Below are positions 13,766-29,363 of a stretch of DNA of 29,363 nt, piece after piece; position 1 is the stretch's first letter, and each line of letters starts with the position of its first letter. Origin of the DNA: a virus; IMG/VR virus record IMGVR_UViG_3300033571_022986, positions 1 to 29,363 of that record; one strand, given 5' to 3'. Below the pieces are notes generated by a model that saw only the letters and a program-made list of their open reading frames with translations, was not told the origin of the DNA and did not search any database. The position numbers and the translations under genes are program-made.

Positions 13766-13984
13766 ATGAGAACAGATGGACAGCGTTATTTCAAAGTAGA
13801 TGTGGAAATTAGTTCAGAAACTGACAGAGGTAAGTATAAAAAACATACCGAGCAGTACTTAACTCTTGCGACAGGATGCACTGAAGCAGAAGCTCAAGTT
13901 ATCAAAAACTTTACAGATGTTGGAGATATTAGAGATTACAGAGTTAAGGGTGTGTCTGAAACTAAAATTGTTGAAGTAATCTGA
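13766..13984 (+). CDS. DUF4494-like small protein, 72 residues
   Basis: The pattern YFKVDVEIS, then TEQYLTLATGCTEAEAQVI, then DYRVKGVSETKIVEVI resembles DUF4494, a short protein of unknown function seen mainly in Bacteroidota and their phages, in which a Tyr-Leu strand is followed by a T-E-A-E-A helix. The recognition is from memory and needs a profile search. The fold would be a small beta-alpha-beta unit without catalytic residues. Its stop codon shares one base with the start of the glycosyltransferase gene, so the two are translationally coupled. If right, it adds to the evidence for a Bacteroidota host. Confidence 0.6.
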   Translation: MRTDGQRYFKVDVEISSETDRGKYKKHTEQYLTLATGCTEAEAQVIKNFTDVGDIRDYRVKGVSETKIVEVI

Positions 13985-15024
13985 TGAAAATATTCATTGT
14001 TGATAATGCATCATATGGTGTAAGTGAGCAGCACAGGTGGATTAGTGTTATATCAGATTTAAAAAATACACACTGCATTGGTGAGGTATTTCATATAAAA
14101 GGCAAATCTAATTTTCACAGATATCATGCTGCAAATAAATATCAGACCATAGATGCATTATCCAATGAATTAATGTTCCATTTAAAAACGACAGTTGATG
14201 ACAATTCCATTTTCATATTTGCAAATGCCAGAGATGCATTAGTATTGTCATTAAATGAATATAGAATTTTAACGAAGAAAAAATTTAAGATTTTTGCATA
14301 TTGGGTTGATTCAATACACTTAACGCAAGGCATTTTATATAAACGTGCTGAAAAGCCATATTTGACTTGGATTAAAAGTTTTGAAAAATGTATAATTGAT
14401 GCGTTGGATTTAAATATGGTTCCTTATGATTTACTTCATAACAGGATGATTAAAACATATTCGGATAGGGTGTGTAAAAAAATAATTAAATGCGCATTAC
14501 CATTCGATTCAACTTTGAATGAGTCTATTTTAGAGATACAGCAATTTGAAATTCCAAGAGAAGATATAATTGTTTTAAATACTGGTCCTGAAGATATTAT
14601 GGATGCTACATTGTTTAGAGCAATAACACGAGAATTTCCAACATATGAATTTATAAATATTGCTGATAGATATTTGACATCTATAGAATATAGACGTCTT
14701 CTTGCAAAATCAAAAGCAGTAATATCATTGAATAAAGCTGATGATGATCCGTATACCATTGTGGAATCAATGACATTGGGGTGCATTCCTATTCTCCCTG
14801 ATATTGAAATATATAAAGAGATGTTTCATTCTGATTGGATTTATTCAAGTATTATATTTAAACTTCCGTATTTAAACTTTATACGAAATCGAGAAGAAAT
14901 ATTTCTAAAAATTTCAAATTGTGTAGAAAATTATGAATCATTTAATATAGAGGAGCAATGCGATTCTGTGATTGATAAATATTATAATTCGGACAATTTA
15001 AAACAAATTTTATGCAATCAATAA
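13984..15024 (+). CDS. GT-B-like glycosyltransferase inside the replisome operon
   Basis: This 346-residue protein has two Rossmann-like halves. The N-terminus starts MKIFIVDNASYG. The C-terminal half has the donor-site pattern DDDPYTIVESMTLGCIPILPD (split: DDDPYTIVES, TLGCIPILPD), equivalent to the EX7E motif of GT-B enzymes with Asp253 in place of the first Glu and Glu261 as the second. Length is near T4 beta-glucosyltransferase (351), but I see no specific similarity to it. It overlaps the next gene, gp44, by 13 bases and the preceding gene by 1, so it is made with the clamp and clamp loader and not with the sugar genes downstream. That location makes a DNA-directed role conceivable. Protein or lipid acceptors remain possible. 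Confidence 0.68.
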   Translation: MKIFIVDNASYGVSEQHRWISVISDLKNTHCIGEVFHIKGKSNFHRYHAANKYQTIDALSNELMFHLKTTVDDNSIFIFANARDALVLSLNEYRILTKKKFKIFAYWVDSIHLTQGILYKRAEKPYLTWIKSFEKCIIDALDLNMVPYDLLHNRMIKTYSDRVCKKIIKCALPFDSTLNESILEIQQFEIPREDIIVLNTGPEDIMDATLFRAITREFPTYEFINIADRYLTSIEYRRLLAKSKAVISLNKADDDPYTIVESMTLGCIPILPDIEIYKEMFHSDWIYSSIIFKLPYLNFIRNREEIFLKISNCVENYESFNIEEQCDSVIDKYYNSDNLKQILCNQ

Positions 15025-16712: not shown

Positions 16713-17669
16713 ATGAGCATAAAATATGCAACAAGTATCTTTGGTTTACAATCTGAAGGTGAAATAAATATGGATACGGATAAAATTGTTTCCTTTAGCC
16801 AGTATTCAAAATACAAAAAATGTCCTAAAAGTTGGGAGTTGCATTATGTTCGAAAACATAAAGTTTCAAAGGAAACAATTAGTTTTGTTTATGGCCAAGC
16901 AATGCACACAACCATACAAACATTTTTGCACACGTGTTATGTAAAGTCAGTTAAAGAAGCAAACCAAACTAATTGGGAGGCATTTCTGCTTGAGCAAATG
17001 AAAAATGAATATAAAGAACGTGTGGAAAAAAATGGTAGCCACTTTTCATCAAAAGAACAATTAGCAGAATATTATTCAGATGGTGTTGAGATTTTGAAGT
17101 TTATAAAATCAAAACGTACAAGATATTTTTCAACAAAAGGTATTAAATTGGTAGCAATTGAACTTCCAATAGTCGCTATACCTGATCCTAAACGTCCCAA
17201 TATAAAAATGCAGCAACATTTGGATTTAGTCTTTTATGATTCAGATTCAAAAGAATATACTATTGTTGATATAAAAACCGCAAAAAATGGTTGGAATCAA
17301 TATAAAAAGAAGGATAAAGCGACTACAAATCAATTAGTGTTATATAAAAAGGAATTTTGTGAAAAATATAAAATTGACCCAAGTAAAGTAAATATTGAAT
17401 ATTTCATATTACGACAAAAAATTGACCCTGATAGTTTGTGGCCCATAAAAAGAGTCTCGCAATTTTCACCCGCATCAGGAAAAATTGCAGTATCTCAAGT
17501 ATCAAAAGACTTTCAAAATTTTTTGGATGAATGTTTTGATTCTGATGGGCAATATATTGATAAAAGTCATCCTGCATTATGTGGAAAAAACATGTTTAAT
17601 TGTAGATTTTGTGAATACAACGACCGAGAAGATTTATGTCCAGTAGCAAATAGAATTCAAAATGTATAA
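16713..17669 (+). CDS. Cas4/AddB-like PD-(D/E)XK nuclease with Fe-S cysteines
   Basis: This 318-residue protein begins with SFSQYSKYKKCPKSW, typical of the RecB/Cas4 nuclease family, followed by YGQAMHTTIQ. The catalytic core has Asp171 (HLDLVF) and Asp186-Ile-Lys188 (VDIKTAK), then the QLVLYKKEF segment (QxxxY motif). Four cysteines fit a 4Fe-4S cluster that pins the two ends: Cys37, Cys297, Cys300 and Cys309. Family members cut or resect DNA ends with 5'-3' or 3'-5' polarity. A second ATG at 16770 (MDTDKIVSF) would shorten it by 19 residues and begins nearer to the conserved core. It lies between gp62 and a SLOG-like gene, overlapping the latter by 8 bases. A role in host DNA breakdown or recombination-linked end resection is likely. 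Confidence 0.83.
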   Translation: MSIKYATSIFGLQSEGEINMDTDKIVSFSQYSKYKKCPKSWELHYVRKHKVSKETISFVYGQAMHTTIQTFLHTCYVKSVKEANQTNWEAFLLEQMKNEYKERVEKNGSHFSSKEQLAEYYSDGVEILKFIKSKRTRYFSTKGIKLVAIELPIVAIPDPKRPNIKMQQHLDLVFYDSDSKEYTIVDIKTAKNGWNQYKKKDKATTNQLVLYKKEFCEKYKIDPSKVNIEYFILRQKIDPDSLWPIKRVSQFSPASGKIAVSQVSKDFQNFLDECFDSDGQYIDKSHPALCGKNMFNCRFCEYNDREDLCPVANRIQNV

Positions 17670-18069
17670 AATTGCAATAATTGGTAGTAAAGATTATGTT
17701 AGAGAAAGTAATATTGCATCTTTTATTAATAAAATAAAAAAACAATTCGGCCCTACAGTAACAATAATATCAGGAGGAACTGACATTGGGACAGAATATT
17801 GGGTAAAAAAATATACTTTGGAGCTTGGATTGAAATTTAAAGAATATAATCCATCATACACCGGATATAGAATGCATTCTGCACTTAAAGAATCATACTA
17901 TGGTAAGGGATTTCACCCAAGCCATTTTTACGATAGATATAAACGTATGTTACAAGAAGCCGATAGATTGATTGTATTTGCTGAAAATTATTCTAATCTT
18001 GAAGCAGATTTAGAATATGCGATAAAATTGGCAAAAAAGAAAAATATTTCTCATATTATTATTTATTAA
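17662..18069 (+). CDS. SLOG/YspA-like Rossmann protein (DprA superfamily)
   Basis: This 135-residue protein opens with IAIIGSKDY, then TVTIISGGTDIGTEYWVKKY (split: TIISGGTDIG, TEYWVKKYTLELG), typical of the nucleotide-binding loop of SLOG proteins such as YspA (DUF2493), LOG and DprA. A later segment, ADRLIVFAENYSNLEADLEYAI, matches the closing motif in which a surface residue contacts the ligand. SLOG proteins bind nucleotides or nucleotide-derived signals, and some act in anti-phage signalling. It overlaps the Cas4-like gene by 8 bases and ends the replication block. An NAD- or nucleotide-sensing role, or a DNA-uptake or recombination role, cannot be separated from sequence alone. Confidence 0.7.
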   Translation: MYKIAIIGSKDYVRESNIASFINKIKKQFGPTVTIISGGTDIGTEYWVKKYTLELGLKFKEYNPSYTGYRMHSALKESYYGKGFHPSHFYDRYKRMLQEADRLIVFAENYSNLEADLEYAIKLAKKKNISHIIIY

Positions 18070-18103: not shown

Positions 18104-19606
18104 ATGCAGTTACCAAAACTAAAAAAGGTTACCGAGGCGCAATTACAGCGCCCAAAAATACTTTTGTTAAGTGATGATATGTTTACAACAAGTGGTATTG
18201 CCACAATGTCACGAGCTTTCGTATTTGGAACAGTTGATAGATTCAATTGGGTACAGTTAGCCGCTGCCATAAATCATCATTCGGCAGGAAAAGTAATTGA
18301 TGTCAGCGACCAAGTTGCAACCGAAACGGGAGTCGAAGATGCATCAGTCAAATTATATCCGTATAATGGATATGGAGATCCTCAAATTTTAAGACAACTG
18401 ATTGAAGTTGAAAAACCCGATGCCATTTTGCATTTTACAGATCCAAGATATTGGATGTGGTTATATCAAATGGAGCATGAACTTCATAATAGATACAACA
18501 TTCCAATAGCTTATTATGCAATTTGGGACAATTTCCCATATCCTCATTGGAATAAATCAGCATATGGTTCATGTGATTTGATAATGGGTATTAGTAAACA
18601 ATCTCATTTGATTCACAATAAGGTTCTTGAATATGCAGATATTAAGACGCATGATTTAAATTCAGATCCTGATTTAACAAAATATGAACCTGGTGATGTG
18701 TTAACAAGTTATGTTCCGCATGGAATAGATAGTACCGTATACAGGCCAATTTTTGAAGATGCGCTTGATTGGAATGAATATAATCTATTTGAAACTGAAT
18801 TTAGAAAAAAACATAACGCACAATTTGTAGTATTTTGGTCAAATAGAAATATTAGAAGGAAGCAGCCTGCTGATGTTATTCATGCGTTTAAATTGTTTGT
18901 AGATAAATTGCCAGAAAATGAAAGAACTCAATGTGCATTATTAATGCATACTGCTCCGAGAGATGCTAATGGAACAGATTTAGTAGCAGTCAAAAAGGCA
19001 ATTGCTCCCGATTGTAATATCATTTTTAGTGTAGATAAATTATCAAATAGGCATTTAAATTTCTTTTACAATTTAGCAGATGTCACATTGAACATTGGAA
19101 GTAATGAGGGATTTGGATTATCATCCGCAGAATCAGTCATGGCTGGGACATGCATTATAAGTAATGTGACAGGTGGATTGCAAGATCAAATGCGATTTGA
19201 AGACAATGAAGGTAATTGGTTTACACCTTCAAATGAAGTAAGTTCAAATCATAGAAAAACTTATACTGATTGTGGAGAATGGGCATTTCCAGTATTTCCA
19301 TCAAATCTTTCAATTCAAGGTTCACTTGAAACACCATACATTTTCGATGATAGGGCGCATGATACAGATATAGCAAGTGCAATTAATGTAGCATATAATT
19401 TTGGAAGACTTGAATTGAAACGCCGAGGATTGATTGGTAGAGAATGGATGATGTCTGATGAAAGCAATATGGAAATTAAGGGTATGTCAAATGGTATTGC
19501 TGATGGATTGAATACGTTATTAAAAGTTTGGAAAGGTGGTAAACGTTTCGGACTATATAAAGTTAATGAAAGTAAAAAAATTGTTGAAACAGGTATAACA
19601 TTATAA
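18104..19606 (+). CDS. GT4-like glycosyltransferase 1
   Basis: This 500-residue GT-B enzyme has a Rossmann N-terminal half (PKILLLSDDMF, then TSGIATMSRAF) and the GT4 donor site SNEGFGLSSAESVMAG, with Glu335 and Glu343 forming the EX7E pair. It would transfer a sugar from a nucleotide donor with retention of configuration. The first nine residues (MQLPKLKKV) repeat a motif found at the C-terminus of the next gene. Insertions after residue 370 make it longer than typical GT4 proteins. It opens the glycan island after a 34-base gap with no visible promoter, and the next gene begins 2 bases after its stop. Sugar and acceptor are unknown. Confidence 0.86.
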   Translation: MQLPKLKKVTEAQLQRPKILLLSDDMFTTSGIATMSRAFVFGTVDRFNWVQLAAAINHHSAGKVIDVSDQVATETGVEDASVKLYPYNGYGDPQILRQLIEVEKPDAILHFTDPRYWMWLYQMEHELHNRYNIPIAYYAIWDNFPYPHWNKSAYGSCDLIMGISKQSHLIHNKVLEYADIKTHDLNSDPDLTKYEPGDVLTSYVPHGIDSTVYRPIFEDALDWNEYNLFETEFRKKHNAQFVVFWSNRNIRRKQPADVIHAFKLFVDKLPENERTQCALLMHTAPRDANGTDLVAVKKAIAPDCNIIFSVDKLSNRHLNFFYNLADVTLNIGSNEGFGLSSAESVMAGTCIISNVTGGLQDQMRFEDNEGNWFTPSNEVSSNHRKTYTDCGEWAFPVFPSNLSIQGSLETPYIFDDRAHDTDIASAINVAYNFGRLELKRRGLIGREWMMSDESNMEIKGMSNGIADGLNTLLKVWKGGKRFGLYKVNESKKIVETGITL

Positions 19607-19608
19607 AT

Positions 19609-20949
19609 ATGAATAAAAAAATAGTTTTCGCAGGACCCGTAGGAACACGCAGTGGTTATGGTGCAAGGGCAAGAGATATTTGTAAAGCATTAATAAGTTC
19701 AGGTTACGATTTATCAATCATTCCTTTAAATTGGGGGACTACACCAATTGACGCATTGGATGAAAATAATGATACTGATAAGGAAATTTTAAAAAGATTT
19801 CATACGGGACCAAATTTAAATTATCAACCGGATATTTTTATTCATTGTACTATACCGAATGAATTTCAACCTGCAGGTAAATTTAACATAGGTCTTACAG
19901 CAGGGATAGAGACAGATGCATGTCAACCTGAATGGATTGAGGGATGTAATAGAATGAATTTAGTATTGACGAGTAGTGAACATTCAAAAAAAGTTTTTGA
20001 GACAATTGAATTTGAAAAGCGGGATAAGCAGACAAATCAAGTTATTGAAAAAATAAAATGTAGGACACCAATTGAAGTTTTATTTGAGGGTGTGGATACA
20101 GATGTATATTTTAAGAGTGATAAATTTGAATCTGCTGAATTGAAAGGATTTTTAGATTCAATACCAGAATCATTCGCGTATCTTTTTGTAGGTCATTGGT
20201 TGCAAGGTGATTTAGGACAGGATAGAAAAGATGTAGGTATGTTAGTACATACGTTTTTAAATACATTCATGAATGAACCTGAAAATAAACGACCTGCGTT
20301 ATTATTGAAAGTGAGTTTGGCAGGTTTTTCTTTACCAGAAAGGCATTCTATTGAAGATAGAGTCCAACAAATTCAGCAAATGGTACGGGATTCGGGATTT
20401 ACTGGAACATTTCCAAACATTTATATATTGTTTGGTGATCTTTCTGATTCTGAAATGAATGAGTTATATAATCATAGTAAGATAAAAGCTATGGTGTCAT
20501 TTACAAAGGGAGAAGGATATGGAAGACCTTTGCTTGAATTCACAACAACAGGAAAGCCTGTGATAGCACCTAATTGGTCAGGTCAAATAGATTTTCTTAA
20601 TGCTGAATATTCATACTTGTTACCAGGAGGATTGAATAAAGTACATGATTCAGCAGTAAATCAATGGATAGTTCAAGGTTCGCAATGGTTTACAGTTAAT
20701 TATGGATTAGCATCGGCGACATTAAAACAAATTTTTAACAATTATAATTCTGCTGCATCAAAGTGTAAAAGTCATCTAAAATATACATTGGATAAATTTA
20801 CAATGAAACATATGGAAAATAAATTGAAAGAATATTTGGAAAATACAAATAAATTTCTTACATTGCAAAATATTCCAATTGAAAATAAATTGAATTTACC
20901 TAAAATTAATTTACCAAAATTGAAGAAAGTAAATGAGCAAAACGATTAA
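19609..20949 (+). CDS. GT4-like glycosyltransferase 2 with LPKLKKV tail
   Basis: This 446-residue GT-B enzyme begins IVFAGPVGTRSGYGARARDI, a glycine-rich acceptor loop, and has the donor site GEGYGRPLLEFTTTGKPVIA with Glu302 and Glu310. The C-terminal 40 residues are helical then extended and end with the repeat NLPKINLPKLKKV (nucleotides 20896-20931). The last seven residues of that repeat equal residues 3-9 of glycosyltransferase 1. It overlaps the next gene by 17 bases. As a pair with the upstream gene it may add consecutive sugars. Its substrate cannot be named. Confidence 0.86.
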   Translation: MNKKIVFAGPVGTRSGYGARARDICKALISSGYDLSIIPLNWGTTPIDALDENNDTDKEILKRFHTGPNLNYQPDIFIHCTIPNEFQPAGKFNIGLTAGIETDACQPEWIEGCNRMNLVLTSSEHSKKVFETIEFEKRDKQTNQVIEKIKCRTPIEVLFEGVDTDVYFKSDKFESAELKGFLDSIPESFAYLFVGHWLQGDLGQDRKDVGMLVHTFLNTFMNEPENKRPALLLKVSLAGFSLPERHSIEDRVQQIQQMVRDSGFTGTFPNIYILFGDLSDSEMNELYNHSKIKAMVSFTKGEGYGRPLLEFTTTGKPVIAPNWSGQIDFLNAEYSYLLPGGLNKVHDSAVNQWIVQGSQWFTVNYGLASATLKQIFNNYNSAASKCKSHLKYTLDKFTMKHMENKLKEYLENTNKFLTLQNIPIENKLNLPKINLPKLKKVNEQND

Positions 20950-21541
20950 ATTAAAAAGTGAACCGAAACCTGAAAAAGTCAAGGTTAATTATGATGAAAA
21001 ATCACCTATAACAGGTAATTTTACAGTATTGGTTGAAAAAATTGAAGTTCCTAAAGAAGGTAATGAAGGACAACCAATAATGGACACATACAAAATTTGT
21101 ATGGAGACAGGATATCAAACTTATTGGGATACATGGAAAGAAGAAAATCCTGATTTGATTGCGAATATAGAAAGGCAAATGCCAGAATATATTGTCAAGC
21201 ACAAATATGTTGATTCATATAAACGTATTTGGTATCCAATGACTACAATTTCATATGTCGCTTCACTGTACCCTACAATTGATGCAAATAATCAATTGGA
21301 ATGGACAGTTGCTAAAATTTATATTGCTGAAAGTGAAGAGGAGTTGAAAGACAGAAAAGTAGTTAAATTACCAGTACTGGTTGAAAATGAAACAAAAATG
21401 GCATATTTTATTGTAGATGAAGCAAATGCAAAACATTGGAAATTAAATGAGTTTGAATCTGCATTCGATGAATATCAATTGATAGTCACTGAAGAAAGCG
21501 AAAAGTTATCTGAAAATGTAAACGAATTAGTTAATGAGTAA
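20933..21541 (+). CDS. Hypothetical protein, 202 residues, within the glycan island
   Basis: I do not recognise this protein. The first 25 residues are basic and look flexible (TIKLKSEPKPEKVKV). The body is rich in aromatic and charged residues (GYQTYWDTWKEEN, then YKRIWYPMTTISYVASLYP) and looks alpha/beta. A final acidic helix closes it (EESEKLSENVNELVNE). There is no membrane span, signal peptide or enzyme motif. It overlaps its upstream gene by 17 bases and its downstream gene by 8, so it is coupled to the glycosyltransferases on both sides. It could be the glycan acceptor, an adaptor or a virion component. This is inference from position. Confidence 0.75.
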   Translation: MSKTIKLKSEPKPEKVKVNYDEKSPITGNFTVLVEKIEVPKEGNEGQPIMDTYKICMETGYQTYWDTWKEENPDLIANIERQMPEYIVKHKYVDSYKRIWYPMTTISYVASLYPTIDANNQLEWTVAKIYIAESEEELKDRKVVKLPVLVENETKMAYFIVDEANAKHWKLNEFESAFDEYQLIVTEESEKLSENVNELVNE

Positions 21542-22253
21542 GTATTTTTCGATAAGTTATGCGATTCCAGTATGCAATGAACATGAGGAATTGAAACAAT
21601 TATTAGTGCAATTGAATGACTTTGTAGATAAGCATGACCAAATAGTTATTCAATCTGATGAAGGAAATACAACAGAACAAGTATTTCAAGTAATTGATTG
21701 GTTCAGAGAAAATTGTAAGTGTGAGTTTGATTTCGTTCAATGGCCCTTGAAAAATGATTTTGCACAATTTAAGAATAATCTCAAATCGAATTGTAGAAAA
21801 GATTATATATTTCAGATTGATGCCGATGAGTTATTAGGTGATGGTTTATGTATGAATATTCATTCATTATTAACAGAAAATGGAGATACTGAATTATATT
21901 TCATACCAAGAATCAATATTGTGAAAGGTTTGACACGAGAATATGCCGAATCTCAAAATTGGAATATTAGGCAGATTGATTTTCCAATTGCGACTGAATA
22001 TAATGAATATGTAGTTAATTTCCCTGATAGACAAGCGAGGTTGTTTAAAAATAAACCTGAAATAAAATGGCGAAATAAAGTTCATGAAGTTATTATTGGA
22101 CACAAAAGTTATATTGATATGGCACAAGGATTTTATGAATTAGATCCTGAACAAGTTCAAGCATGGTGTTTGATTCATATAAAGGATTTTGAACGACAAA
22201 AGAAACAAAATCAAAAATATTTGCAAATATCAAAGGTTGGGAATGATTGGTAA
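21534..22253 (+). CDS. GT2-like glycosyltransferase 1
   Basis: This 239-residue GT-A enzyme starts with SISYAIPVCNEHEELKQLL, the usual family 2 N-terminal strand and helix. The metal and nucleotide-sugar motif is DAD (Asp96, Asp98) in FQIDADELLG. FPDRQARLFKNKPEIKWR then KVHEVI matches the late region of GT2 proteins that act in LPS core assembly (WaaE/KdtX-like). It overlaps the preceding gene by 8 bases and the following gene by 11. Metal-dependent, inverting transfer is expected of the family; the acceptor is unknown. Confidence 0.85.
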   Translation: MSKYFSISYAIPVCNEHEELKQLLVQLNDFVDKHDQIVIQSDEGNTTEQVFQVIDWFRENCKCEFDFVQWPLKNDFAQFKNNLKSNCRKDYIFQIDADELLGDGLCMNIHSLLTENGDTELYFIPRINIVKGLTREYAESQNWNIRQIDFPIATEYNEYVVNFPDRQARLFKNKPEIKWRNKVHEVIIGHKSYIDMAQGFYELDPEQVQAWCLIHIKDFERQKKQNQKYLQISKVGNDW

Positions 22254-23136
22254 TATCGTAACACATTGTATTTCAACGTATAACAATTTGCAATATCTAA
22301 AAATTGCGATTGATTCTGTTAGAAAAAATAGTTATTATAATACAGCACCTTTCATAATCCATGCTGAAAATTGTACTGATGGTACAAATGAATGGTTATT
22401 AGAAAACGAAGACAAATATAATCTGACTTTATTGATTGAACCTAATAACTCTATTGTCCGAGGTATTGGTGGTGGAATGAACATATGCGCCGAAAATGTT
22501 AAAACTGAATATATAAATTTTTTACATTCCGACTTTTATGTTACAAAAAATTGGGATTTGGAATTGATGAAAATTCATGATAAATACCCAAATGAAAAAA
22601 TATGGGCTAATTCGCATAGGGTAGAACCTAATATGTTCAATTCTCCTCAACGTCACGGAACTGTTATTGTAGATAAAGATATATTTGGAGCGTATTGGAA
22701 CGACTTCAATTCAAATGCATTTGACGAATGGGCTGATGAGTTTGTATCTATAAATGATTTCGAAATTCCAAAGGGAGAGGGAGTAAGCGGTTTGGTTAAA
22801 AAAGAAGTATGGGATGAAACAGGCGGCAATGATCCAATTTTTTCACCTGCAAGTTGGGAGGATATGGATTTATTTTTGAGATTGATGATGAATTCTGTGA
22901 AGTTTGTATTACCATCGAAATCATTAGTTTGGCATTTTGGGGCGAGAGGTAGCCACAGATTGGAAGAGAACGATGGAAAGAGTTCAGAACGTCAGAAACA
23001 ATCTGAATTGGCGAATATGCAAAAGTGGGTAGCAAAGTGGGGCATTTTACCAGAGTTTGATGAGTATGGAATGATTCGTCTGACTAATTTTATATACGAC
23101 CAATGGGGCGCTGTACTTCCGTTAAACTATAAATAA
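22243..23136 (+). CDS. GT2-like glycosyltransferase 2
   Basis: This GT-A protein has 297 residues from the ATG at 22243 (MIGNIVTHCISTYNN). A longer frame opening with TTG at 22189 would overlap the upstream gene by 65 bases and adds a lysine-rich stretch with no similarity, so I prefer the ATG. Motifs are HAENCTDGTNEWL (sugar-nucleotide strand), LHSDFYV with Asp97 in the DxD position, and a late SWEDMDLFLRL with the catalytic Asp/Glu pair. Its stop lies 3 bases before the next gene. It and the preceding gene form a tandem GT2 pair. Confidence 0.83.
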   Translation: MIGNIVTHCISTYNNLQYLKIAIDSVRKNSYYNTAPFIIHAENCTDGTNEWLLENEDKYNLTLLIEPNNSIVRGIGGGMNICAENVKTEYINFLHSDFYVTKNWDLELMKIHDKYPNEKIWANSHRVEPNMFNSPQRHGTVIVDKDIFGAYWNDFNSNAFDEWADEFVSINDFEIPKGEGVSGLVKKEVWDETGGNDPIFSPASWEDMDLFLRLMMNSVKFVLPSKSLVWHFGARGSHRLEENDGKSSERQKQSELANMQKWVAKWGILPEFDEYGMIRLTNFIYDQWGAVLPLNYK

Positions 23137-23139
23137 TTT

Positions 23140-23541
23140 ATGGCAAGAAAATATTTACCTACATTGAGTGAATTGATTGACAGATTGTCAATCGTGCAAT
23201 TGAAAGAAGTGTTTATTTCAGAACACAAATCCGAATACGCGAAGGAAATACAAGATATTGTACATGATATTCAGGAACACATCAACGAAAACAATACGAA
23301 ATTTACTGCGGAAACTATACGAGCTATTATAGTTTTGAGCCAAATGAATTTACATATATGGCACAACGAATCGAATTATCGTAAAGGCATTAAAGACGGA
23401 AATAATTTAGAATTGACTCATGGAATTAATGGGATTAGAAATACTGCAAAAAACAAGATTCAAGAAATAGTGGGTGGTAGGAAGGATTATAAAATAGATT
23501 GTTTGGCTGCAGAATTTAAGGATTGGGAAATTAGTTGGTAA
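23140..23541 (+). CDS. Helical protein, 133 residues, possibly DUF4254-like
   Basis: The protein is predicted all-helical. Features are LPTLSELIDRLSIVQLKEVF at the start, a middle segment with LSQMNLHIWHNESNYRKG, and a closing helix with HGINGIRNTAKNKI. The leucine-rich start and I-W-H-N-E centre recall DUF4254-type proteins, which are often found next to glycosyltransferases in bacterial surface-sugar loci. I offer that only as a resemblance. There are no membrane segments or enzyme motifs. The TAA stop shares its last base with the ATG of the next gene. An adaptor or acceptor-handling role in the glycan pathway is possible. Confidence 0.72.
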   Translation: MARKYLPTLSELIDRLSIVQLKEVFISEHKSEYAKEIQDIVHDIQEHINENNTKFTAETIRAIIVLSQMNLHIWHNESNYRKGIKDGNNLELTHGINGIRNTAKNKIQEIVGGRKDYKIDCLAAEFKDWEISW

Positions 23542-24350
23542 TGGAAAATATTGTAATATATTGTAAAAGTTACATCAATGATTTGGAGCGCGTTAAAATT
23601 CAAGCTCAATCAATTGAAAAATTCAATGTGGATAGTATACCTTATTATGTATCTTGTCCAAAAAGTGATTACCCGTCTTTCAAATCAAATCTCCCGGAAT
23701 TTGTGAATTTGATATCGGATGAGGATATAATACGTGATAACATGCATCAGTCATGGCACAATCAGCAAATTGTGAAATCGCAGTTTTATAAATATGTGGA
23801 TACGATAAATTACCTATGTATAGATTCCGATTCTTATTTTATCAGACCATTCCGTAAGGCAGATTTTATTGCAGTTGCAGATACGCCATATACTATAATG
23901 CATCAGCAAAAAAATTTATTTCAATGGACTTGCAGATATAAAAAAGAATTGGGATTTGACCCACAAAAAAGTTTTGATGAATGTCGAGTTCAAATAGGAA
24001 ACATTTTTGATAGGCAGATTAAAGTCAATTATGATTTTGGCCCGTCTCCAACAATATGGTCTAAAAAAGTTTGGGATGCATTAGATGAAAATTATTTGAA
24101 ACCGAATAATTTAACTTTTAAGCAATTGATTGAAGTTGTTCCGAGCGAATTTACTTGGTATGGGGAAGCATTATTGGCGTTTAAACCAATAGAAATCTAC
24201 CCTATAGAACCACTTTTTATGGTGTTTCATTATCCATTGCAATATCAACAATTTTTACAACAAAATTATACGGAAGAAGATTTGGCATCATGTTATATGG
24301 GAATCATAATGACATCTAACTGGAATGCCCCATTAAGGTATAACGCATGA
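23541..24350 (+). CDS. DUF6492-like glycosyltransferase
   Basis: This GT-A-type protein has 269 residues from the ATG at 23541. The in-frame TTG at 23535 is ignored because the ATG forms a TAATG junction with the upstream stop. The motif LCIDSDSYFIRPF supplies DSD (Asp95, Asp97), like the DxD of DUF6492 and related bacterial transferases of surface sugars. Later parts contain VVPSEFTWYGEALLAF and a C-terminal region with FMVFHYP. No signal peptide is seen, so it acts in the cytoplasm. Its end overlaps the epimerase gene by ATGA. Substrate unknown. Confidence 0.78.
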   Translation: MENIVIYCKSYINDLERVKIQAQSIEKFNVDSIPYYVSCPKSDYPSFKSNLPEFVNLISDEDIIRDNMHQSWHNQQIVKSQFYKYVDTINYLCIDSDSYFIRPFRKADFIAVADTPYTIMHQQKNLFQWTCRYKKELGFDPQKSFDECRVQIGNIFDRQIKVNYDFGPSPTIWSKKVWDALDENYLKPNNLTFKQLIEVVPSEFTWYGEALLAFKPIEIYPIEPLFMVFHYPLQYQQFLQQNYTEEDLASCYMGIIMTSNWNAPLRYNA

Positions 24351-25201
24351 ATATATTAGTAACAGGTGGAGTTGGATTTGTTGGTTCTAATTTGGTAGAA
24401 AAACTTAAATCAGATGGGCATAAAATAATTGTTATTGACAATTATAGCGCAGGAAAGCGAGAGAATGAAATATCGGATGTCATTTATGTAAATGAGCATA
24501 CAAAAAATATAAATTCGATAATTTTACCATTTGAGCCAGATGTAGTATTTCATTTGGGGGAATACTCAAGAATACATCCGTCATTTGAAGAATACGAACG
24601 AGTTTGGCAATACAATACAGTGGGCACATTTGAGGTTTTGAATTTTTGTAAAAAACGAAATATAAAAATTATTTATGCTGCGTCGAGTACAAGATTTGCA
24701 AAGGAAGGAATAGATCATTCTCCATATGCATTGACAAAATATATGAGTGTTCAATTAGTAAAAGGATTTAGTAAATGGTATGGTCTTAAATATGCAATTT
24801 GCTATTTTTATAACGTTTTTGGGCCTAAACATGATAGTAGTCCCGTACCTGGTTATGAATCAGTCATAAGTATTTTCCATAAACAGTTTAAAAATAATCA
24901 ACCATTGACAGTTACAGGCGACGGCAGCCAAGAAAGAATGTTTACCTATGTCGGAGATGTGGTAGATGGATTAATCAAGTCGTGGGACTATCAAGAAAAT
25001 GATGAATTCGATTTGGTCAATCCGATAAAATCGTATAAAATACTTGAAATAGCAAAAATGTTTTCTAATAATATTGTATTTGTTCAATCAAGAAATGGTG
25101 ACAGAGCAAAGAGTGACCCGCAGAATTATATTGAAACATGTAATAAATTAAATTGGGAGCCCAAAGTTGGTGTCGAACAATGGATAGAGGAAAACAAATA
25201 A
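24347..25201 (+). CDS. NAD-dependent sugar-nucleotide epimerase/dehydratase (extended SDR)
   Basis: This 284-residue enzyme modifies a nucleotide-activated sugar, probably as a 4-epimerase or dehydratase. The NAD site is GGVGFVG (Gly7, Gly10, Gly13) and the catalytic pair is Tyr127 and Lys131 (YALTK). The usual Ser/Thr is in YAASSTRF about a dozen residues earlier. DGSQERMFTYVGDVVDG is the substrate-side motif of the GalE/RmlB group. The protein is somewhat short for GalE (about 330). The start overlaps the previous gene by ATGA and the stop shares its last base with the next ATG. Confidence 0.9.
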   Translation: MNILVTGGVGFVGSNLVEKLKSDGHKIIVIDNYSAGKRENEISDVIYVNEHTKNINSIILPFEPDVVFHLGEYSRIHPSFEEYERVWQYNTVGTFEVLNFCKKRNIKIIYAASSTRFAKEGIDHSPYALTKYMSVQLVKGFSKWYGLKYAICYFYNVFGPKHDSSPVPGYESVISIFHKQFKNNQPLTVTGDGSQERMFTYVGDVVDGLIKSWDYQENDEFDLVNPIKSYKILEIAKMFSNNIVFVQSRNGDRAKSDPQNYIETCNKLNWEPKVGVEQWIEENK

Positions 25202-26514
25202 TGCATGTAATTATTCCAATAAATGGGCGGAATGAGAGAATGGGAAGTTTGTTTAAAACTTCCAAACATTTACTTTTATACCGAGGGAAACAATTGTTAT
25301 TGCACACTATCGATAATCTAAAATATAGATTTCCAAATTGTGAAATTACTATTTTAACTAACGATTTTTACGCAAGTGACATACAAAAAGTATGTAACTA
25401 TAACGCTAATGTAATAGTAATTTCTCCAACTTCTTCACAAGTAGAGACGCTTAAAACGTTTACAACAAAACTTTCAGGAGCAGTTCTATTTGTAGATTGT
25501 GATATCGTGCCAATGACGATTTCAGAGTTTGATACTAAATTTACAACAGTATTTGCATTTGAGAACACTACTAAATTATTAAATTATAGTAATTTTAAAT
25601 CTGATAAAAATAATAATATAGTCGATTGCAATGAAAAACGAAAATTGTTTAAATACGCAGGGGCTGGAGTATATTATTTTTCAGATGTTGAATTGTTTAA
25701 TACGCAATCGGAAAATTGTAATAACGTATCTGAATGTGTTCAAAATTTAATACTGAATGGAGAGACTTGTAAATTGAACACTACGAGCAAAATTGAACGA
25801 TTTGGTACTCTTCAAGATATATACATAGATAATTTTTCATTTAGAGCTCACAAGCAGAAAGATTTAAGTACTGGGTTTACTGATAATAAAGTATACAAAT
25901 ATCGAAACATTGTTGTTAAAATTGGCAGCACCGTAAACAATGAATATGAATGGTATAAATCATATACAGATAAAAAACATATACCAAATATAATATCATG
26001 TGCTGATGGGAAGATGACAATGGAATATATCCATAGAAATAATGATTTTAATTTGGATGATGTGTTTGAGTTGGTGTCAAATTACAAATCCTATGCCAGA
26101 TTGAACGATTTGACATTTGATAGTTATATTGAAAATATAAAACGACATTTAAATGATAATTCAAATATAACAAACGGGGATAAATTAATATCACATTTAA
26201 GTAATTTGAATATAGAGCCAACATTTTGCCATGGTGATTTAAGTGTCATGAATTTAATTCCAACTACAAATGGGATAAAAATGATAGACCCACTATACTC
26301 AAGATATAAATTTGGGTCGTATCAGTTAGATTTAGCTAAATTGTGTTTCAGTTTTAAATTTTATAAAAATGACTCCGCATCATTCAACTATATTAAACAG
26401 CAAATTGATATAAAATATATTGATGTGCTAATAGCAGCTGAATCTGTTAGAGTTGCATCTTATAAAAAGGAATACAGTTTCATTTCAGAAAATTTAATTA
26501 ATGAAATAATATGA
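25201..26514 (+). CDS. Fused nucleotidyltransferase and APH-like kinase
   Basis: This 437-residue protein starts at the ATG at 25201, coupled by TAATG to the epimerase stop. An upstream in-frame TTG at 25153 lies inside that gene and is not favoured. Residues 1-230 resemble a sugar-phosphate or phosphocholine nucleotidyltransferase: IIPINGRNERMG, then SKHLLLYRGKQLL, and the metal motif VDCD (Asp99, Asp101). From about residue 235 an APH/choline-kinase-like domain follows, with the Brenner motif CHGDLSVMNLI (His344, Asp346, Asn351) and the metal Asp363 in MIDPLY. One chain could phosphorylate a sugar or alcohol and then activate it with CTP or another NTP. This pairing recalls LicC plus LicA, or kinase-cytidylyltransferase pairs of capsule loci. 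Specificity is not readable. The next gene, a phosphatase, overlaps by ATGA. Confidence 0.8.
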   Translation: MHVIIPINGRNERMGSLFKTSKHLLLYRGKQLLLHTIDNLKYRFPNCEITILTNDFYASDIQKVCNYNANVIVISPTSSQVETLKTFTTKLSGAVLFVDCDIVPMTISEFDTKFTTVFAFENTTKLLNYSNFKSDKNNNIVDCNEKRKLFKYAGAGVYYFSDVELFNTQSENCNNVSECVQNLILNGETCKLNTTSKIERFGTLQDIYIDNFSFRAHKQKDLSTGFTDNKVYKYRNIVVKIGSTVNNEYEWYKSYTDKKHIPNIISCADGKMTMEYIHRNNDFNLDDVFELVSNYKSYARLNDLTFDSYIENIKRHLNDNSNITNGDKLISHLSNLNIEPTFCHGDLSVMNLIPTTNGIKMIDPLYSRYKFGSYQLDLAKLCFSFKFYKNDSASFNYIKQQIDIKYIDVLIAAESVRVASYKKEYSFISENLINEII

Positions 26515-26864
26515 AGCCTAAAACTATATTTTGTGATATTGATGGTACATTGGTAACCCATAGCTTGCCAACAGATAGTTCAAAACCATCATTTAAAATG
26601 GAACTATTACCAGGAGCAATAGAAAAATTAACTGAATGGGATAAGAAAGGATATTATATAATATTAATAACAGGGCGTAAGCAGAGCTTGCGTAAAATGA
26701 CAGAACGTCAGTTAGCAGAAGCGGGGATTTTTTATGACAAATTGCTCATGGGAATTGGGAGTGGCGAAAGAATTATGATAAATGATATGAAACCAGATGG
26801 AACTAAAACTGCAACTTCTATTAATGTCAGTAGAAATTCAGGAATAAACGATATAAACATTTAA
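26511..26864 (+). CDS. Small HAD-family phosphatase
   Basis: This 117-residue protein keeps the HAD catalytic motifs in a minimal fold. Motif I is DIDGT (Asp9 nucleophile, Asp11 acid/base), motif II is ITGR (Thr54) and motif IV is MINDMKP (Asp92). There is no cap domain, so a large or exposed phosphate substrate is likely. Comparable small HAD proteins occur in capsule and LPS loci beside nucleotidyltransferases, where they dephosphorylate sugar phosphates. It overlaps the fused transferase-kinase by ATGA, which suggests consecutive steps of one pathway. The start ATG is fixed by that overlap. Confidence 0.86.
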   Translation: MKPKTIFCDIDGTLVTHSLPTDSSKPSFKMELLPGAIEKLTEWDKKGYYIILITGRKQSLRKMTERQLAEAGIFYDKLLMGIGSGERIMINDMKPDGTKTATSINVSRNSGINDINI

Positions 26865-26868
26865 AAAT

Positions 26869-27669
26869 ATGAAATCAAGTGTAATATTTGCGGTATCAAT
26901 ATTTGATGAAAATAAAATTCACGTGTTAGATGAATTTTTTAATGAGTTTAAAAGAAATTTTTCAGATTGTGATTTTTATATTGGTATTAATTATAACTCA
27001 CTTCCACAAGTTGAATCTATTATTGAATCATATAGATTAAATACATTCGTTAGCAGAGTAGTCGAATCAGAATTGTACACCGGATCCGACGCATCTGCTT
27101 ATCAAGCAGCATTGAAATTATTAAAATATAATAATAAGTCGTATGATATATATTGGTTTGGTCACACAAAAGGAGCAGTGAATCACAGACCATTTGAAAG
27201 GTCATTGTATTTAAAAGAATTGTTTGGCAACAGACTTGAAATTGAGTCACTATTTTTAAATAATCCTAAATTAGGAAGCTATGCGTTAAGGGGAGTTTCA
27301 AGAAGTGCAGGTCGTATCGAATGGGCTACTTATAATAAAGACCATGAAATTCATTTATGTGAAAATGTTGTCACTGAAGAATTGCCATTTACTCATGTTA
27401 ATTGGTCATATATAGAAACTATGTACGCCATAAATAAAGAATCTGTAGAGACCTTTTTAAATGTTACAACAGATAATTTTTACAACAATAGAATATCAGA
27501 ACCATGTTATTTTGAAACAGTATTCCCATGGGTAGCTACCAGATGCGGATACTTTCCATATATAAAAGAATCAGAATGTTTTTTTAAAGAGCGCAATTTG
27601 AAAGATATAACACGCGAGTGGATTGAAACTAATAAATTATACCACCTCAATAACTATTTGGATTTATGA
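26869..27669 (+). CDS. Glycosyltransferase-like protein, 266 residues
   Basis: Family membership is uncertain. The N-terminal strands (SVIFAVSIFDEN, then CDFYIGINYNS) look like a GT-A nucleotide-binding half, and IYWFGHTKGAV resembles the HTK motif of some polysaccharide transferases. Later conserved-looking segments are YALRGVSRSAGRIEWA and EPCYFETVFPWVATR. No classical DxD is evident. There is no membrane span. It is placed between the HAD gene (4-base gap) and another transferase-like gene (ATGA overlap), so a role in the same pathway is likely. Confidence 0.62.
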   Translation: MKSSVIFAVSIFDENKIHVLDEFFNEFKRNFSDCDFYIGINYNSLPQVESIIESYRLNTFVSRVVESELYTGSDASAYQAALKLLKYNNKSYDIYWFGHTKGAVNHRPFERSLYLKELFGNRLEIESLFLNNPKLGSYALRGVSRSAGRIEWATYNKDHEIHLCENVVTEELPFTHVNWSYIETMYAINKESVETFLNVTTDNFYNNRISEPCYFETVFPWVATRCGYFPYIKESECFFKERNLKDITREWIETNKLYHLNNYLDL

Positions 27670-28415
27670 AAATATTAGTATCTTTGTCTTCATACGGAAA
27701 TAAAAATTTGCATTACTTAAATTCTATAGTTGATGAATATAAGTCGTATAAAAAATACGATATTTTCATAGATGTGCATTGTACGGTGCCAATAGAACGA
27801 ACTGATATAAATCAAATAATTCACGAAAATCCATCAACTACATCATTATTTCATAGAAAGGATTTTATAGAAAAACAGAATGATTATGATTTATTTATTT
27901 TTTCTGAATATGATATGTTGATACGCGAGCACTGCATAGACACTTTTTTAAAATACGATAAACTTCTTCCTATAGATTATTGTTTGGGGTTTATACGATA
28001 TGAAAACACTCCCGAGAATGAGGAGTATTTGATAGATTTGTGGAAGAACATTTCAGGGTATAATTACATACATTCAGTAAATAATGAGTACTTTGAAGTA
28101 TCAAATGTGCATCAAGCATGTTATGTACTAACTAAAGAAAAATTAAAATTTGTAATTCAAAATTCTGATTTTGATATTGATACATTGAGTGGAAATGGCC
28201 CTGAAATGGCTTCATCAGGAATATTCAAAAATTGGCCCATAGGGCCTAAAGGTTTGATTACTAAAGTATTGCCTAAAAATAAAGATATTGATTTTTGTTT
28301 CATACATCACATGGCAGATTGTCATTGCAATCCTCCAGGAGTAAATTCAGATTATATGACATTTAGAAACAACACTATAACGAAAAAATTATTATTTCAA
28401 GATTTAAATTTATAA
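27666..28415 (+). CDS. Glycosyltransferase-like protein, 249 residues
   Basis: The protein begins MKILVSLSSYGNKNLHYL, as in GT-A proteins. It has YDLFIFSEYDMLI with Glu81-x-Asp83, an ExD version of the DxD metal motif, and later FIHHMADCHCNPPG with His and Cys residues that might bind metal. The C-terminal half contains ACYVLTKEKL, a pattern also seen in acceptor domains of such enzymes. It overlaps the preceding gene by ATGA and the next begins 6 bases after its stop. Sugar and acceptor are unknown. It may be related to the preceding gene in fold. Confidence 0.64.
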   Translation: MKILVSLSSYGNKNLHYLNSIVDEYKSYKKYDIFIDVHCTVPIERTDINQIIHENPSTTSLFHRKDFIEKQNDYDLFIFSEYDMLIREHCIDTFLKYDKLLPIDYCLGFIRYENTPENEEYLIDLWKNISGYNYIHSVNNEYFEVSNVHQACYVLTKEKLKFVIQNSDFDIDTLSGNGPEMASSGIFKNWPIGPKGLITKVLPKNKDIDFCFIHHMADCHCNPPGVNSDYMTFRNNTITKKLLFQDLNL

Positions 28416-28421
28416 TATATT

Positions 28422-29363
28422 ATGGAGTCGATAGCGAAAAAAGTAAACGGAAAAAAATTTTTAGTAACAGGAGGTACAGGTTTTTTTGGTACAAATTTTA
28501 AAGAATATGTTCAAAAAATTGGTGGGCACGTAGTGACAGTCGGTTCAAATTATGATTTATCAAATGAAAGCGAGGCTGAACTGTTATTTCAAAAACATTT
28601 GTTGGATAAGTTTGATTATATTATTCATGGCGCTGCATTACAAGCTGCAGGGGATTGGCCGCTTCATCATAAGGCAGAGCAGTATGATGTGAATTTGAAA
28701 ATTCATGCCAACACATTTAAAATGTGGCATAAGTATCAGCCACAAGCAAAAATGATAGGCATTGGAAGTTCGTGTTCGTATCCAAAAACTAAAGAAGTTT
28801 TAGCAGAATCCGATTATTGGGATGGCGCAATGCATGAATCAGTAGATATATATGGATTCACTAAAAAGGCAGTTAGCGTTGGAATTGAGGCATATAAATC
28901 TCAATATAAATTAAATGGGACGACTGTAATTTTTGCGACACTTTACGGCCCTCACGACCATTTTGACCCAGAAAAATCACATGTTGTGTCTGCTTTAGTT
29001 AAAAAATTTGTGGACGCAGTTGATAATAACGAATCTGAAGTTGAAGTTTGGGGAGATGGCACGCAAACAAGAGAATTGATTTTTGTGGACGACCAAATCA
29101 AAGCATTACTTTCAGTGTTAGATTACAACGGCTCGTTGATTAATATTGGAACGGGAACGTCAATTACTATTAAGGAATTGGCAGAAACAATCAAAAAACA
29201 ATCTGGATTTGTAGGTAATATATTTTATAATACTAATCGTTTCGTTGGAATTAAACATAAAGTTTTGGATGTTACTTTAGCTAAAAATGAATTTGGTTGG
29301 ACGTCTAATATACAACCGGATACATTAGAAAATAATTTAAAGAAAACGATTGATTGGTATAAA
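28422..29363 (+). CDS. GDP-L-fucose synthase-like epimerase/reductase (3' end cut by window)
   Basis: An open frame of 314 codons runs from the ATG at 28422 to the window end with no stop, so the gene is probably missing only its last few residues (relatives have about 310-320). It is an extended SDR. The NADP site is GGTGFFG (residues 17-23), the Cys of GSSCSYP is Cys118 and the catalytic pair is Tyr144 and Lys148 (YGFTKK). LYGPHDHFDP and ESEVEVWGDGTQTRELIFV match GDP-L-fucose synthase, which converts GDP-4-keto-6-deoxymannose to GDP-L-fucose with NADPH. The Cys and His residues of that family are consistent with epimerase function. It follows a transferase-like gene by 6 bases. No GDP-mannose dehydratase is in the window. 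Confidence 0.87.
   Translation, partial: MESIAKKVNGKKFLVTGGTGFFGTNFKEYVQKIGGHVVTVGSNYDLSNESEAELLFQKHLLDKFDYIIHGAALQAAGDWPLHHKAEQYDVNLKIHANTFKMWHKYQPQAKMIGIGSSCSYPKTKEVLAESDYWDGAMHESVDIYGFTKKAVSVGIEAYKSQYKLNGTTVIFATLYGPHDHFDPEKSHVVSALVKKFVDAVDNNESEVEVWGDGTQTRELIFVDDQIKALLSVLDYNGSLINIGTGTSITIKELAETIKKQSGFVGNIFYNTNRFVGIKHKVLDVTLAKNEFGWTSNIQPDTLENNLKKTIDWYK

Follow-up and report, generated by a model that had tools for sequence, protein, structure and literature searches.

What phages decorate by means of their glycan genes is an old question, since such genes have been known in marine T4-like phages for two decades without a known target. The window, that is, the whole stretch of DNA analysed, is a 29,363-base IMG/VR viral fragment (record IMGVR_UViG_3300033571_022986). 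A T4-type replication module takes up the first 18 kb, and behind it positions 18,104 to 29,363 hold an island of 13 open reading frames (ORFs), all of them on the (+) strand and, once starts have been corrected, separated by −17 to +6 bases; the last gene of the island is cut by the contig end. A preliminary description, made from the letters alone, had spoken of twelve genes, although its own list sums to 13, and every ORF that it placed is found on the + strand in tight packing. Its view of the island as a glycan-assembly operon in a phage, well beyond the needs of T4 DNA glucosylation, is borne out, whereas the single fixed pathway that it pictured gives way to a conserved core followed by an exchangeable cassette. 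This system is real and ordered and is widespread in a large group of T4-type water phages, most of them uncultured; its mechanism is plausible, and its acceptor is proposed.

A fixed core of three glycosyltransferases

The fixed core of the island consists of the GT-B glycosyltransferases GT4a and GT4b and, after a small protein named unk202, the GT-A glycosyltransferase GT2a. GT4b has matches in at least 598 viral stretches. In the 82 loci compared by tblastn, GT4a and GT4b are each present in 82, the PD-(D/E)XK nuclease ahead of the island in 77 and GT2a in 66, and most other island genes of the window are rare. The number of related loci with GT4a or GT4b rises to about 120 once loci found through another small island protein, unk133, are added, and the island statistics are based on the 56 islands in which GT4b is followed by 7 kb or more of sequence. 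GT2a is present in 55 of these 56 islands, and the unk202 family lies between GT4b and GT2a in 42. The catalytic signatures are nearly invariant (E335-x7-E343 of GT4a in 113 of 113 sequences, E302-x7-E310 of GT4b in 119 of 119, and D96-A-D98-E99 of GT2a in 99–100% of 102), suggesting that all three proteins are active enzymes and that none is a decayed partner. This bears on the idea that acquired capsule genes are genomic filler, serving as stuffer or drifting without a role in infection. Stuffer DNA has been raised as an explanation for cyanophage lipopolysaccharide (LPS) genes (PMC3037559), but the catalytic residues here are 99–100% conserved across deep divergence, and the cassette genes are intact, keep their overlapping reading frames and are under purifying selection, with nonsynonymous divergence (dN) much lower than synonymous divergence (dS). 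Such a filler is therefore very improbable.

A T4-type phage backbone is confirmed. PHROGs matches in the window include gp32, UvsX, exonuclease, helicase, NrdB, NrdA, MazG, gp43 and gp44; gp45 and gp62 are placed by position, and the PD-(D/E)XK nuclease belongs to the same module. The Gp23 capsid family is present in 15 of 17 long relatives, the capsid region lying outside the window. Since the DNA polymerase is 36% identical to that of Microcystis phage Mel-JY01 and 30% to that of cyanophage S-CAM1, the window phage belongs to a deep, largely uncultured branch.

The only isolates matching both GT4a (E ≤ 1e-5) and GT4b (E ≤ 1e-10) are Flavobacterium phage immuto and Mel-JY01, which share the core order, carry a variable cargo different from that of the window, and have been annotated gene by gene as encoding glycosyltransferases, epimerase or hypothetical proteins. 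In Rhodothermus phage RM378 (L215, 8806–14910), the ribonucleotide reductase gene is followed by genes for a GT4a (2e-60), for a weakly GT4b-like protein next to it (2e-8) and for two GT2a-like proteins, and none of the neighbouring genes is annotated as sugar cargo; RM378 possibly represents a minimal core form without cargo. The presence of the core in culturable phages (immuto, Mel-JY01 and possibly, in minimal form, RM378) opens the question of phage sugar coats to direct experiment. A bacterial assembly of the order Flavobacteriales (G135) contains two GT4a-GT4b-unk202 copies (loci L211 and L213), which are probably phage contigs binned with their host or captured infections, and which could point to a host.

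The marine T4-like phages P-SSM2, S-SSM7 and S-SM2 also carry large glycan gene blocks, known as LPS clusters. The cluster of P-SSM2 comprises 24 genes (PMC2984593), and in the two largest T4-like cyanophages, glycan clusters account for about 72–85% of the additional genome size (PMC3037559). However, the clusters of P-SSM2, S-SSM7 and S-SM2 lie near hli03/phoH and tRNA genes, whereas the present island is anchored behind clamp-loader and nuclease genes by GT4a-GT4b-GT2a, and neither GT4a (E ≤ 1e-5) nor GT4b (E ≤ 1e-10) has a match in P-SSM2, which is in the phage collection searched. Glycosyltransferases are likewise recurrent in uncultured aquatic phages such as pelagimyophages (PMC7029224) and moraphages (PMC12619734), a likeness in description: the pelagimyophage transferases are often near tail fibres and have been read as modifying host LPS, and those of moraphages fall into four separate core groups.

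Exchangeable cargo behind the core

Everything behind the core is cargo exchangeable between phages. The 56 islands contain 203 gene families, 118 of which are seen once, and the mean Jaccard similarity of island gene content is 0.08–0.22 up to 80% core identity (0.22 at 65–80%). In bounded islands, families of the GT2, SDR, aminotransferase, methyltransferase and NeuB kinds are abundant. The nine-gene cassette of the window, from GT2b to SDR2, recurs in the same order in three other phage contigs (L105, L107 and L108) at 63–91% amino-acid identity, while their core proteins are only 35–51% identical to those of the window and rank 72–74 of 119 in core similarity. The contig nearest to the window in the core (G001, rank 1) is without this cassette and carries quite different cargo. 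Since the three contigs repeat the cassette order behind a divergent copy of the core, a misassembly of the window with a chromosomal capsule locus is ruled out.

Clearer cases of exchange than the window's cassette are provided by two other pairs of loci. In L008 and L037, a shared run of nine cargo genes has 0.59–0.93 amino-acid identity and dS of 0.27–1.31 (median about 0.77), compared with 0.39–0.58 identity and dS of 1.06–1.42 in the left flank from GT4a to GT2a, and identity is down again to 0.42 in the terminal GT2. The SDR encoded by gene 22 of G008 is 96% identical to its counterpart in L148 (dS 0.53), as against 45% for GT4b (dS 1.34). Between the window and G008, dN is much lower than dS, and the synonymous sites of both core and cargo are saturated, so that a recent transfer of the window's cassette is not shown.

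The 3' end of the island is seen in relatives. G008 continues past SDR2 for about 6.7 kb with seven more genes, which encode, in order, a methyltransferase, a DUF3431 protein, an FkbM methyltransferase, an SDR, a 528-amino-acid protein, a weakly DUF707-like protein of 241 amino acids and a terminal GT2 of 386 amino acids; beyond these lie a small hydrophobic protein and then endolysin and holin relatives. A terminal GT2 of the immuto gp169 type is located downstream of GT4b in 14 islands. Because the window is truncated, statements on absent genes such as gmd cover only its visible part. The complete donor pathway of the preliminary description is not shown: SDR2 is GDP-L-fucose synthase-like, but gmd is neither in the truncated window nor seen in the G008 island. 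Island G005 encodes a GDP-mannose dehydratase and a GT10-like protein.

Conserved flanks around an exchanged centre of sugar-nucleotide and transferase genes are also typical of bacterial capsule and O-antigen (Wzx/Wzy) loci; unlike these, the island is without membrane machinery and is carried by T4-type phages. No description of the core-plus-cassette arrangement was found in the open-licence papers searched, and this serotype-locus organisation, its exchange, the anchored three-transferase core and the conserved accessory proteins appear to be new.

The acceptor and the proposed mechanism

Published LPS-type clusters (PMC3037559, PMC2984593) and phage transferases (PMC7029224, PMC12619734) have usually been read as serving host-surface or DNA modification. 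For the host surface, infection would bring a change of LPS or capsule that blocks superinfection, an idea put forward for marine T4-like phages such as P-SSM2 and for pelagimyophages (PMC2984593, PMC7029224), and the enzyme classes of the island are indeed like those of O-antigen loci. However, hydrophobic segments long enough for a membrane are missing from all proteins of the window's block. Among the 723 proteins encoded downstream in relatives, two or more hydrophobic segments occur in only 7, of which six are shorter than 115 amino acids and one is 350 amino acids long, and no such protein lies inside the complete G008 island. No plausible candidate for a flippase, a polymerase or a priming transferase is found in the window's block, among the 723 downstream proteins or in the complete G008 island. 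A lytic cycle also leaves little time for replacing surface glycans. Remodelling of the host surface is thus improbable. Since the block offers no means of priming, flipping or polymerising a lipid-linked polymer, a soluble phage product is the most likely acceptor.

The acceptor could instead be DNA. Two GT-B transferases near replication genes recall the alpha- and beta-glucosyltransferases of T4, which employs this pair on its DNA (PMC13216743), and virus-encoded transferases are noted to place diverse glycans on DNA, according to the mention of Pyle 2024 in PMC12619734. The core, which adjoins clamp-loader and nuclease genes in the window and polymerase-like and ribonucleotide reductase genes in RM378, would then glycosylate a modified base of the genome, and the cassette would extend the sugar to give varied protection against host nucleases. 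GT4a and GT4b, however, match PF00534 and its relatives only and belong to neither the T4 alpha- nor the beta-glucosyltransferase family of Pfam, and the pair is joined in the island by a GT2 and as many as about 20 cargo genes. An Asn in place of Asp tells thymidylate synthase from dCMP-hydroxymethylase. PF00303 is absent from 14 of 21 records and, where its motif is readable (G007, G008, G309, G311, G313 and G316), occurs in the Asn form, thymidylate synthase; other matches are the annotated ThyA of immuto and a sub-threshold one in L221. Thus, no dCMP-hydroxymethylase, and with it no hydroxymethylcytosine gene, is recognised in the 21 records, which include the complete immuto, Mel-JY01 and RM378, the genome of the window being incomplete. 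A Tet_JBP search gave no match, but its control was equally silent. In addition, immuto, itself an island bearer, already has a 7-deazaguanine DNA pathway with DpdA, and so many different sugar pathways are not obviously needed for DNA protection. Hypermodification of DNA is therefore rather unlikely, if less so than a change of the host surface.

GT2a shows a weak likeness to the SunS peptide S-glycosyltransferase (TIGR04195, 4e-4, far below cut-off). This likeness, the lack of membrane machinery, the absence of a recognised dCMP-hydroxymethylase and the 7-deazaguanine pathway of immuto together favour a soluble phage product, with a virion protein as the first candidate. There is about an even chance that the island acts as a phage 'serotype' locus, whose variable glycan is attached to a soluble product of the phage, a virion protein being the most likely one; the narrower proposal that the acceptor is a virion or other phage protein is equally finely balanced.

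A scheme can be proposed for the order of steps, the sugars, the acceptor and the benefit of such a serotype locus. GT4a, GT4b and GT2a, in most islands together with the small partner protein, would assemble a short glycan base common to the lineage, on an acceptor that all of its phages possess. The cassette behind the core, swapped as a block or in pieces, would make special activated sugars and add the variable outer part. In the window, the cassette may make a deoxysugar through the fucose-synthase-like SDR2 and a second nucleotide sugar through SDR1, while the fused kinase-nucleotidyltransferase would produce an NDP-activated small alcohol or sugar and the HAD phosphatase would act on an intermediate. 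The variable glycan may alter recognition of the particle by hosts, grazers or binding proteins.

Several points weigh against this proposal and the comparisons behind it. No acceptor has been identified, and the location of the core in the replication neighbourhood would suit DNA modification. The phage could also borrow transporters or lipid carriers from its host. The T4 late promoter TATAAATA precedes GT4a in none of 81 loci against a background of 2%, and is thus uninformative; in the window, it occurs below chance. The loci were gathered via GT4b or unk133, biasing the frequencies towards these two. Finally, because synonymous sites are saturated, exchange between the window and G008 rests on discordance between core and cargo and not on dates.

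A broader picture is put forward more tentatively than the serotype locus itself: a widespread uncultured T4-type lineage may have its own serotypes, the particle (or the DNA) bearing a constant glycan base beneath an outer sugar cassette that is swapped by O-antigen-like exchange, along with two conserved accessory proteins, unk202 in the core and unk133, which Flavobacteriales chromosomes also encode. If the glycan is indeed on the particle, phage populations would have a serotype diversity produced by cassette exchange.

Accessory proteins, gene assignments and flanking genes

The unk202 family is found directly after GT4b in 49 loci. Most members start with a Zn-ribbon-like CPxC...CxxCG pattern, most of whose cysteines are missing from the window copy. 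The best PDB matches of the family profile are RPB9-type ribbons, at a non-significant level, and an AlphaFold2 model (pLDDT 85) has no significant fold match in PDB and only one, an uncharacterised phage protein, in BFVD. The preliminary description had suggested that the two small proteins might be acceptor or adaptor, and a role of unk202 as an adaptor is possible.

For the unannotated unk133 (133 amino acids), a role as acceptor is unlikely. It has 456 viral relatives, the best 80 of which are 81–92% identical; recent transfer as the cause of this high identity is ruled out by saturated dS with dN of about 0.12. About half of the sampled phage copies are near GT4b. A lone gene on the chromosome also encodes the protein in 17 of the 296 genomes sampled from the order Flavobacteriales, the bearers being marine, and in metagenome-assembled genomes (MAGs) of Neomarinimicrobiota; in Flavobacteriales the gene lies, for example, between infC and recA or next to a dihydrolipoamide-dehydrogenase-like gene. 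Since it stands alone in Flavobacteriales chromosomes, unk133 is a cellular protein that phages carry as well, and it is unlikely to be a dedicated acceptor. It is weakly DUF4254-like, and its four-helix AlphaFold2 model (pLDDT 82) has no significant fold match in PDB. Islands with unk133 (L104, L132, L137, L166 and L061) show recurrent dehydrogenase E1-alpha/beta-like pairs, and others have PfkB- or HldE-like kinase and cytidylyltransferase genes. In Desulfomonile (L204), a 41% identical relative lies beside GHMP-kinase-like and transketolase-like genes. Assigned by eye, the enzyme genes around unk133 possibly form an unusual sugar pathway. A copy with an in-frame stop is present at L192:6001-6396, in a MAG labelled Thaumarchaeota.

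Three starts in the island were moved from TTG to ATG (GT2b, the DUF6492 gene and the fused nucleotidyltransferase-kinase gene), and with the corrected starts each of the latter two genes shares one base with the stop codon before it (Table 1). Among the enzyme classes assigned beforehand, GT4, GT2, DUF6492, SDR and HAD are supported by Pfam/NCBIfam, the two halves of the nucleotidyltransferase-kinase match weakly, and the two further transferase-like proteins have no family match. The two SDRs reach family scores of 1e-39 and 8e-37 (Pfam/NCBIfam), and SDR2 has SSC, YxxxK and SHV motifs, corresponding to the Ser/Tyr/Lys, Cys and His set of Fcl. The C-terminus of the fused enzyme matches choline kinases weakly (E 0.012–0.014) and has HGDLSVMN and IDP motifs; compared with the LicA/LicC-type CDP-choline enzymes, the protein thus only weakly matches NTP_transf_3 and choline kinases. 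It has no relatives in GenBank phages or in the 296 Flavobacteriales genomes. Pattern scans of viral and genome collections were also empty, yet they missed the real relatives in L105, L107 and L108 and so prove little.

Table 1. Genes of the island and its left flank in the window
Feature	Position	Strand	Evidence
Left flank, PD-(D/E)XK (RecB-like) nuclease	16713..17669	+	PF12705 4e-15; conserved ahead of island
Left flank, small SLOG/YspA-like protein	17662..18069	+	PF10686 weak; 18/82 loci
Core, GT4a, GT-B glycosyltransferase	18104..19606	+	PF00534 2.7e-6, over cut-off
Core, GT4b, GT-B glycosyltransferase	19609..20949	+	PF00534 3e-5, just under cut-off
Core, small protein unk202	20933..21541	+	family directly after GT4b
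Core, GT2a, GT-A glycosyltransferase	21534..22253	+	GT2 weak
Cassette gene 1, GT2b glycosyltransferase	22243..23136 (ORF from 22189 before start correction)	+	PF00535 1.3e-11; 63-65% identity in L105/L107/L108
Cassette gene 2, unk133, four-helix protein, weakly DUF4254-like	23140..23541	+	viral relatives
Cassette gene 3, DUF6492 GT-A-like putative transferase	23541..24350	+	PF20102 1.4e-10; 77% in L108
Cassette gene 4, SDR1, nucleotide-sugar epimerase/dehydratase	24347..25201	+	PF01370 1e-39; nearest PDB 4zrm, UDP-glucose 4-epimerase, 2e-34
Cassette gene 5, nucleotidyltransferase fused to choline/APH-type kinase	25201..26514	+	NTP_transf_3 1e-3, weak
Cassette gene 6, small HAD phosphatase	26511..26864	+	PF03767 5e-8; PDB Pnkp1 1e-7
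Cassette gene 7, transferase-like by position and appearance only	26869..27669	+	no Pfam match; 72% in L108
Cassette gene 8, transferase-like by position and appearance only	27666..28415	+	no Pfam match; 72% in L108
Cassette gene 9, SDR2, GDP-L-fucose synthase-like, cut by contig end	28422..29363	+	NF047922 2.5e-47, below equivalog cut-off; PDB 1bsv 1.6e-36

Two further genes lie in the first 18 kb of the window. The first (13984–15024), just upstream of the clamp-loader gene, encodes a 346-amino-acid protein with a GT-B-like look in its C-terminal part, which has no Pfam match and weak relatives in L004 and L016 only. The second (13766–13984) encodes a DUF4494 protein (2e-9), and the immuto annotation puts a DUF4494 gene among queuosine/7-deazaguanine genes.

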